64,000 bases of DNA from Mangrovivirga cuniculi. Its GTDB lineage: Bacteria; Bacteroidota; Bacteroidia; Cytophagales; Cyclobacteriaceae. The notes under the pieces were generated by a model. That model was given only the letters and a program-made list of their open reading frames with translations. It made no database searches and was not told where the DNA came from. The stretch lies in the NCBI RefSeq assembly GCF_005166025.1, contig NZ_CP028923.1, forward strand, positions 3,846,001 to 3,910,000. The letters run 5' to 3'. The position numbers and the translations under genes were made by a program. This document shows positions 47,662 through 48,423 of this stretch, one piece after another; the first letter of the stretch is position 1, and every line of letters begins with the position of its first letter.

Positions 47662-47823
47662 AATAAATGAGATATAGTTGAATGAGGCACTAAAAGTAAT
47701 CAGCCTCATTTCTAATTACACTTCAATTTGACCTGATTTATTACCTGGATCGATAATTAATTATATAATACCTGGAAGGGATTTATAAAATGTCAAACAT
47801 CTTTACAGTATTATAAAATTACT

Positions 47824-47889
47824 AGAGTGAGTATTGAGAAAACAGTACTCAGAATTCTCGCTCTCGCTCGCACTCTCGGTACTGTTTTA
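47824..47889. repeat. 66-bp direct repeat A with inner inverted arms
   Basis: It matches the copy at 48272-48337 at 62 of 66 positions without gaps. Inner arms AAAACAGTAC and GTACTGTTTT form a hairpin around a GA/CT-rich loop with several GCTC/CTCG units. Two of the four differences from the other copy are compensating changes in the stem. It covers the end of the four-helix-bundle frame. Confidence 0.85.
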
Positions 47890-47967
47890 GGAATCGAACC
47901 GTTTTATCAATCCATAAAGCATCTTAGATAATTCTTCCAAATTAACATACAGCTTTTGATACTGTTC

Positions 47968-48234
47968 TTAGGTTATTTCCTGGCTTTCTTTTAATAACTC
48001 TAGAATTGCAAGGCATTCGAAAACACTTCCTCTGGAAATCACCATAAAATGTTTGCGATCTTTTAGTGTGAATCTGGAAGATCCTTCAGCTATATTTAAA
48101 GCTATACTCATTGAAGCTCTGGATAACTGATCCCTGGTTGTTCTGTCAAATTTGTTTTCGAAAATTAAAGATCGGATTGATTTCCTAAAATCTTTGGAAC
48201 GATGATAAACAGTCAGTTTTTGAAAATCGAACAT
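47968..48234 (-). CDS. Four-helix-bundle protein (S23 / TIGR02436 family), interrupted near its C-terminus
   Basis: From the ATG at 48234 the 88-residue product matches the four-helix-bundle family linked to 23S rRNA intervening sequences and to Avd proteins: FQKLTVYHRSKDFRKSIRSL, DQLSRASMSIALNIAEGSSR and the terminal SVFECLAILELLKESQEIT. A TAA stop follows at 47968, but the same frame continues with family-like EQYQKLYVNLEELSKMLYG to a second TAA at 47887, giving 115 residues, the usual length. A single GAA-to-TAA change would explain it. The in-frame extension upstream of 48234 runs into the repeat and tRNA and is not real. The gene lies between two 66-bp direct repeats. Confidence 0.7.
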   Translation of the reverse strand: MFDFQKLTVYHRSKDFRKSIRSLIFENKFDRTTRDQLSRASMSIALNIAEGSSRFTLKDRKHFMVISRGSVFECLAILELLKESQEIT

Positions 48235-48271
48235 CTCTTTTTTGGTTGATAGATTTGAAAGATTGAGTGTG

Positions 48272-48337
48272 AGAGTGAGTATTGAGAAAACAGAACCAAG
48301 AATTCTCGCTCTCGCTCGCACTCTCGGTTCTGTTTTA
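48272..48337. repeat. 66-bp direct repeat B with inner inverted arms, abutting tRNA-Leu
   Basis: It is the near-identical partner of 47824-47889. Inner arms AAAACAGAAC and GTTCTGTTTT keep perfect pairing although the base that differs from copy A is changed on both sides. It starts two bases from the 3' end of tRNA-Leu(GAG) and, read on the minus strand, could act as its terminator (arm ending GTTTT). Confidence 0.85.
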
Positions 48338-48339
48338 AG

Positions 48340-48423
48340 TGCCCAGAGCGGGAGTCGAACCCGCACGCCCTAACGGACACATGGCCCTCAACCATGCCTG
48401 TCTACCAATTCCAGCACCTGGGC
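48340..48423 (-). tRNA. tRNA-Leu(GAG)
   Basis: An 84-base class II tRNA on the minus strand. Acceptor GCCCAGG pairs with TCTGGGC (one G-U pair). The anticodon stem CATGG/CCATG encloses TTGAGGG with anticodon GAG. The long variable arm TGTCCGTTAGGGCG and T arm GCGGG-TTCGACT-CCCGC fit tRNA-Leu. CCA is not encoded. Confidence 0.97.

Follow-up and report, generated by a model that had tools for sequence, protein, structure and literature searches.

The tRNA-Leu locus

The window analysed here, a stretch of 64,000 nucleotides from Mangrovivirga cuniculi (contig NZ_CP028923.1, positions 3,846,001 to 3,910,000; genome G000), contains a tRNA-Leu(gag) gene with a small cassette at its 3' end, composed of a hairpin that we call H, a pyrimidine-rich tail and a four-helix-bundle gene of the S23 (23S_rRNA_IVP) family. 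All of these features lie on the minus strand. Read in that direction, the tRNA (48339..48423; ARAGORN and Rfam tRNA) is followed by the first hairpin copy, H1 (48283..48338), whose first base adjoins the tRNA, by the tail (48261..48282), which is complementary to the purine loop of H, and by the ATG of the S23 gene (47890..48234), which runs the same way as the tRNA. A second copy, H2 (47835..47890), lies 448 bp from H1, and behind it a remnant of a second S23 start was read by eye (47783..47800; five codons, then a stop), similar to one in Mangrovivirga halotolerans M17 (G001). Between the repeats no frame other than S23 was recognised, the unit measures about 450 bp, and nothing in the window reaches the Rfam gathering score of an rRNA family.

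The 66-bp direct repeats that comprise the two hairpins (47824-47889 and 48272-48337) differ, as originally predicted, at four of 66 positions when the alignment is read (94% identity), and the predicted position next to tRNA-Leu also holds, with one base between repeat and tRNA and none between the tRNA and the hairpin as modelled (48283-48338). The claim of paired changes stood in part. Two of the differences form one compensatory pair (CAGTAC/GTACTG versus CAGAAC/GTTCTG), but the other two, which sit further in, pair only in the tRNA-proximal copy (CC/GG), where they lengthen the stem, and are unpaired in the distal copy; it is in relatives that covariation is strong. H1 has a 17-bp stem in the predicted fold, a purine internal loop, the tip GCGAGAGC and a T-run. 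Compared with dinucleotide shuffles, hairpin plus tail gave a fold z of -3.9 for the proximal copy (0/200 as low) and -2.05 for the distal copy (7/200), and the covariance model R1, which had both copies in its training set, scores them at 69.9 and 66.4 bits. The genome holds no further full-length 66-bp repeat, six more matches spanning only 14-19 bases, and five copies of H at two tRNA loci.

An S23-type gene between the repeats, also predicted, was recovered by its Pfam match (E 6.5e-19 for the first 88 residues), and scores over these residues lie well above the curated cut-offs of PF05635 and TIGR02436 (68.6 bits versus 33.8, and 62.2 versus 24). The prediction needs one correction: an in-frame TAA at codon 89 (47968-47970) ends the frame 26 codons early, and the whole S23 domain (89.3 bits) spans this internal stop. 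The next in-frame stop is the TAA at 47887-47889 inside H2 (TAAAACAG). As seven of 15 codons compared with G001 past the internal TAA differ, all synonymously and none non-synonymously, the stop is either recent, or tolerated, or a sequencing error. Over 71 codons the ratio of non-synonymous to synonymous substitution rates (dN/dS) relative to G001 is 0.06. Profile matches of the protein (P0001) are to TIGR02436, a general S23 model, and to two PRK12275 models. The stretch GGTTCGATTCC at the S23 3' end was considered as a duplication of the tRNA T-arm and rejected, as it represents codons of the S23 C-terminus, for which G001 has AGGTTTGATTCA.

Conservation and spread of the hairpin

By eye, the consensus of H reads (A)CAAAATCAGAGTGAGTGTGAGAGCGAGAGCGAACACTCTCACTCTGATTTTTT, next CTTCACTCTCACTCTCACACTC and next ATGTTYGATTTY, with a conserved purine tip around GCGAGAGC and a loop that is conserved around GAGCGAGAGCGA even where the stems have diverged. 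Eight stretches were folded: six gave a long stem with a GC-GAGA-GC tip, L074 a stem with an open loop, and in the lowest-energy fold of the G001 tRNA-Leu copy the purine loop pairs with the tail instead (fold z from -1.82 to -6.08 over the folded stretches). In a first alignment of 12 hairpins (eight from Mangrovivirga), made in MAFFT without structure, 11 of 18 pairs show compensatory changes, the share of paired cells (89.3%) exceeds that in shuffles (69.5%), and so does the covariation score (0.579 compared to 0.241), each with 0/500 shuffles as high. When 49 distinct rows were realigned to R1, an alignment that leans towards structure and includes two false rows (L158 and L168), 91.8% of cells pair, both partners vary in 16 of the 18 pairs, and the covariation score of 0.593 exceeds both shuffles (0.190; 0/500 as high) and alignments with the partners slid (at most 0.135). 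The covariation that the original prediction proposed to look for in relatives is therefore present there. In Rfam 15 no family matches H, the only matches being to tRNA and, far below gathering scores, to two microRNA families. Complementarity of the tail to the purine strand reaches -20.9 kcal/mol compared to -14.1 kcal/mol for shuffled tails over 45 of the 49 H (excluding L158, L168 and two later copies of arrays), with a weak preference for a locus's own tail over those of others.

The loop motif AGCGAGAGCGARAATTC, allowing one mismatch, was also tried as a locus finder in 390 genomes of the order, and gave 16 matches in 15 genomes compared to eight for the reversed pattern. Two are the window's own; the other 14 loci have no tRNA and are for this reason probably chance, the motif alone being too short.

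R1, which holds no tRNA, was run on 395 genomes of the class Bacteroidia and found 49 matches in 32 of them, a lower bound as stricter filters lose weak matches. The same hairpin thus occurs, as had been proposed for checking, behind other tRNAs and in other genomes. Among 30 loci saved and examined (one from the window's own genome), H begins at most 4 nt from a tRNA 3' end on the same strand in 21, and 13 have S23 or its 5' portion at a distance of 30-132 nt behind H in the same orientation, in seven of them at full length. Reading of all loci placed H within 4 nt of 12 anticodons: Leu(gag, taa, caa), Thr(tgt), Ala(ggc), Arg(cct, tct), Met(cat), His(gtg), Val(tac), Phe(gaa) and Glu(ttc). One genome (G741) has H behind four different tRNAs, and in another (G700) H flanks S23 on both sides, with no tRNA in the 7 kb read.

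Tandem units in Mangrovivirga

The window's genome was compared with two congeners, G001 and G002. At tRNA-Leu of G001 the order tRNA-Leu, H, S23 is ended by the contig end, and another contig starts with an S23 3' end, H and a truncated S23, then the gene that is also next in the window; the layout tRNA-H-S23-H is split over two contig ends. G002 has tRNA-Leu and H with no S23, and no S23 match anywhere in its genome; with this hairpin-only site, the checks originally proposed came out mostly in favour of the prediction. The tRNA-Leu copies of H differ at 5/68 positions within G000, 1/68 within G001 and 7-9 between the genomes. Since the truncated remnant is common to both genomes while the copies are closest within each, this suggests that the copies have been homogenised.

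At tRNA-Thr, G001 has the tRNA, H, an S23 without a stop, an 18-nt copy of the tRNA 3' end, H and a truncated S23, the two H differing at 1/77. The corresponding locus of G000 (L139) carries three H, each after the last bases of the tRNA, the first two differing at 4/77, and two S23 stumps cut at the identical base by REP-like debris, with a frame reminiscent of REP-type transposases. G002 has one H behind a copied tRNA-Thr end and a weak H (39.1 bits) at tRNA-Glu. Duplication of the tRNA 3' end ahead of H was seen at two loci, tRNA-Thr (18 nt) and tRNA-Arg (17 nt, one mismatch). In G000 and G002 a possible GIY-YIG remnant in the stretch that separates tRNA-Thr from its duplicated end was considered and could not be established.

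GIY-YIG arrays with the same architecture

In the window's own genome (L229, G000:C1:718800-720800), three tandem units that are alike by eye stand 408 bp apart behind tRNA-Val(tac), each with a terminator-like hairpin, a GIY-YIG gene and, at the unit end, about 30 nt duplicated from the 3' end of tRNA-Val. Similar arrays occur in G727 (L231, tRNA-Asp) and G820 (L232, tRNA-Phe). These arrays behind tRNAs share the architecture of the S23 cassette. At one further locus (L185, 1547-1732) H behind tRNA-Leu(caa) is followed by an apparent GIY-YIG start, read by eye, in place of S23, and then by the contig end.

S23 genes linked to tRNAs elsewhere

A scan of the G001 protein against one genome for each of 84,980 species gave 64 loci, two of them G001's own. 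In the remaining 62, a set chosen by similarity to tRNA-linked S23, a tRNA lies within 500 bp in 19, all 30 of these tRNAs share the direction of the gene, and within 250 bp the density of tRNAs is 0.8 per kb on the upstream side and 0.65 on the downstream side. Several Bacteroidota loci have a similarly built hairpin, between tRNA and S23 in Owenweeksia (tRNA-Ala) and in Chitinophagales and Loclat (tRNA-Leu(caa)), and beside S23 with no recognised tRNA in ADurb.Bin145. In a WOR-1 genome, 77-bp hairpin-like direct repeats to which R1 gives no match flank S23 behind tRNA-Val. Genes adjacent to tRNAs occur in other phyla too: S23 sits between two tRNA genes at five loci of the Candidate Phyla Radiation (CPR; L077, L078, L082, L088, L098) and at L102 from one other phylum, and one Peregrinibacteria copy is found inside a 23S rRNA gene. 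At several of these six loci, GTTAATAGTTAACTGTTAATTG-type repeats were noticed on both sides of S23.

A tree of 109 proteins, limited by its few columns (118), groups all 15 H-linked S23 with support (96/94) in a single set of 27, whose other members are five further tRNA-linked and seven unlinked rows; the remaining tRNA-linked S23 are mostly placed elsewhere. The labels were set by hand from model matches and locus context, L142 (S23 before H) counting as H-linked and L153 and L154 as other. Four close Bacteroidota pairs (L162/L167, L153/L154, L142/L192 and L066/L067) gave dN/dS values of 0.04, 0.06, 0.15 and 0.32; L147/L164 and L145/L065 were saturated at synonymous sites. These ratios indicate that S23 is under purifying selection.

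Discussion

With moderate confidence, H, its pyrimidine-rich tail and S23 can be regarded as a small selfish cassette of tRNA 3' ends in Bacteroidia, a counterpart of the S23-coding intervening sequences (IVSs) of 23S rRNA. At the level of sequence, H abuts the tRNA 3' end and is conserved and covarying; it often has S23 or a remnant of it behind, running the same way as the tRNA, and also occurs without S23. Units form tandem arrays (tRNA-H-S23-H-truncated S23), S23 is under purifying selection, and tRNA 3' ends are duplicated at two loci. From this anatomy we infer terminator activity of H, binding of H by S23 and movement of the unit; that H also serves as the terminator of the tRNA is very likely. 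In the proposed scheme, H would take the place of the tRNA's own terminator and trailer, which would make an insertion harmless to the tRNA; H would end the transcript and let the tRNA mature, and readthrough transcripts would be the source of S23. The S23 open reading frame (ORF) would come to lie in a loop, as in rRNA elements, if the tail paired either with the purine loop of H or with the next H past the gene, and the S23 protein would probably bind these RNA ends. Recombination or break repair at the tRNA 3' end may bring in new units, and gene conversion may keep the copies in one array alike. As a conserved hairpin next to S23 and at the end of a mature RNA, H would be a concrete candidate for the RNA partner of the protein; it is also a structured RNA motif with no entry in Rfam 15.

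Several observations weigh against a selfish cassette. The cassette has no recombinase, nuclease or reverse transcriptase, no movement was observed, and of the mobile unit originally predicted behind tRNA genes it is the anatomy that stands (12 anticodons, tandem units, duplicated tRNA ends) and not the mobility, the same tRNA being mostly occupied within a genus. For that reason much of the distribution of H may be vertical descent; genus g326 is an exception, with Arg(cct) occupied in one genome and Val(tac) in another. Persistence of H does not require S23, given the break in the window's gene and the many truncated copies. In the window the junction ahead of H2 is the S23 3' end, with no duplication of the tRNA, and at tRNA-Thr the third H of G000 is nearer to the G001 copies (8/77) than to its own neighbours (10 and 11), which speaks against gene conversion there. 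At nine of the 30 loci H abuts no ARAGORN-predicted tRNA. Two of these, L158 and L168, lack the loop and are plain terminators; L140 belongs further down an array whose first copy abuts a tRNA, L143 follows a copied tRNA-Arg end, L139, L142, L146 and L147 follow, by eye, tRNA-tail-like or S23 3' ends, and at L148 only about 100 bases upstream lie within the contig. At L153 and L154 the full S23 is on the opposite strand. In the 12-row alignment the 11 pairs with double changes are not above shuffles (mean 9.5; 102/500 as high), and further pair types are only marginal (48/500). A locus's own tail pairs better with its loop than half of the others do in 28 of 45 loci and ranks in the best 10% in three. 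Finally, as the 62 loci were chosen by similarity to a tRNA-linked S23, their tRNA enrichment cannot be extended to S23 genes in general.

A trans-acting GIY-YIG nuclease is an attractive candidate for the mover of the units. Taken further, such a homing endonuclease would cut the tRNA 3' end, and the S23-H units would be passengers of the same site. The tandem GIY-YIG genes with copies of tRNA 3' ends between the units in the window's genome, G727 and G820 fit this explanation, as do the apparent GIY-YIG start behind H at L185 and the GIY-YIG matches in 20/20 H-bearing genomes searched. Such matches are however near universal (12/14 control genomes), many of them in frames of UvrC length, so that their presence says little, and no complete GIY-YIG gene was found beside any S23-H unit; as a full account it is doubtful.

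Alternatively, the system could serve the host, with H as a cis-acting trailer or attenuator of the tRNA and S23 as a resident, vertically inherited RNA-binding regulator of tRNA maturation. Strong covariation of the stem with a fixed tip, purifying selection on S23, occupation of mostly the same tRNA within genera and the strict co-orientation of S23 and tRNA in the 62-locus set would all be expected from such a role. It is nevertheless unlikely. H was found in just 32 of the 395 class genomes (a minimum, given the filters), a same-strand S23 downstream is lacking at 17 of 30 loci and damaged by breaks or truncation at several more, and 12 different anticodons and tandem units are involved.

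The simpler possibility that H is merely the tRNA's intrinsic terminator, and S23 an unrelated neighbour duplicated alongside, draws on the stem and T-run that stand directly behind the tRNA in most loci and that give H1 and H2 the form of intrinsic terminators. It is highly improbable, being already contradicted by a loop that is conserved around GAGCGAGAGCGA with diverged stems and by the linkage to S23, which follows in 13 of 30 loci; one shape also recurs at 12 anticodons, and a simple terminator scan that finds none here says little, since it covers loops of 3-8 nt only. Ordinary terminators found widely, which the original prediction had named as a refutation, can be rejected as a full explanation, given the conserved loop and the rarity of the hairpin (five copies in the window's genome). 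Least probable of all is a retroelement, in which S23 would work with a reverse transcriptase in trans like Avd of diversity-generating retroelements, a protein of the same four-helix fold family: copies behind RNA genes would fit and RVT_1 matches exist (five in the window's genome, one in G001), but the requirement for a reverse transcriptase does not seem supported, given that 10 of 17 H-bearing genomes (eight of these 99-100% complete) have no RVT_1 match at E 0.001, that none lies near the cassette, the nearest in its own genome being more than 300 kb away, and that P0001 matches general S23 models (in a library that may or may not hold an Avd model). Template and variable repeats with adenine-specific differences would be a further mark of such an element; the 66-bp repeats, the ones considered here, are hairpins outside the S23 gene.

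Relation to known elements

The S23 protein family and its presence in rRNA IVSs are known. The Coxiella IVS is excised from 23S rRNA by RNase III and resembles the cassette in its protein family, its small size with one S23 ORF in a stable-RNA gene, its decaying S23 and heptamer repeats before S23, and possibly in its self-complementary ends (PMC4990558). The cassette differs in lying behind tRNA genes (tRNA-Leu in the window) and not inside rRNA, in having hairpins as direct copies on both sides in place of one terminal stem, and in its conserved purine loop with the GCGAGAGC tip and its tandem units. Insertion sequences in CPR rRNA carry 23S_rRNA_IVP, LAGLIDADG or GIY-YIG (PMC11270868), and thus resemble the tRNA-tail cassettes in bringing S23-type and homing-endonuclease cargo into stable-RNA genes; they sit in 16S and 23S rRNA genes, and the term tRNA does not occur in the text of that paper. 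Among the open-licence titles and abstract beginnings in the matches listed, none concerned S23 genes or H behind tRNA genes, and within this literature no report was found of the tRNA-tail site, the conserved hairpin or the tandem H-S23-H layout.

Integrative elements use attachment sites in tRNA 3' ends. The cassette is like them in using, and at two loci duplicating, the tRNA 3' end, and unlike them in its unit of about 450 bp, with S23 as the only recognised gene and no integrase of its own. The tRNA tail is a niche used in parallel by GIY-YIG genes. Tentatively, the Bacteroidia tRNA-tail cassettes (tRNA 3' end, terminator-like hairpin and S23 or GIY-YIG), which pile up in tandem, might even form one superfamily of stable-RNA-gene parasites with S23-type rRNA IVSs and the S23 genes of CPR tRNA clusters, S23 acting on self-complementary RNA ends.

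As to end pairing of the IVS type around the S23 ORF, the copies of H are direct repeats, tail and loop are complementary with only a weak own-versus-other difference, and other S23 clades have inverted flanks. No tRNA lies in the 1.5 kb retrieved to either side of the 30 best-scoring S23 loci of the window's own family, many of which are flanked by inverted low-complexity repeats such as GTACCAAGTACGATGTAC. Inverted flank matches (score at least 14) were present at 19/30 of these loci and at 27/55 of the 62-locus set (seven loci with short matches left out), compared to 0/30 and 0/47 for windows moved outward; flanks taken from other loci gave 40/349 and 41/649, because the same low-complexity motifs recur. 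Around many S23 genes (L017-L046) degenerate inverted repeats of 7-8 nt were also seen, of the GTACNNA, AGACNNA and AGTAGTGA types, varying from gene to gene. A second S23 gene in the window's own genome (L004, 1600-2110; G000:C1:3304100-3304610) is frame-broken, has no tRNA and is flanked by inverted low-complexity repeats of the AACTAATAACTAATAACC type.
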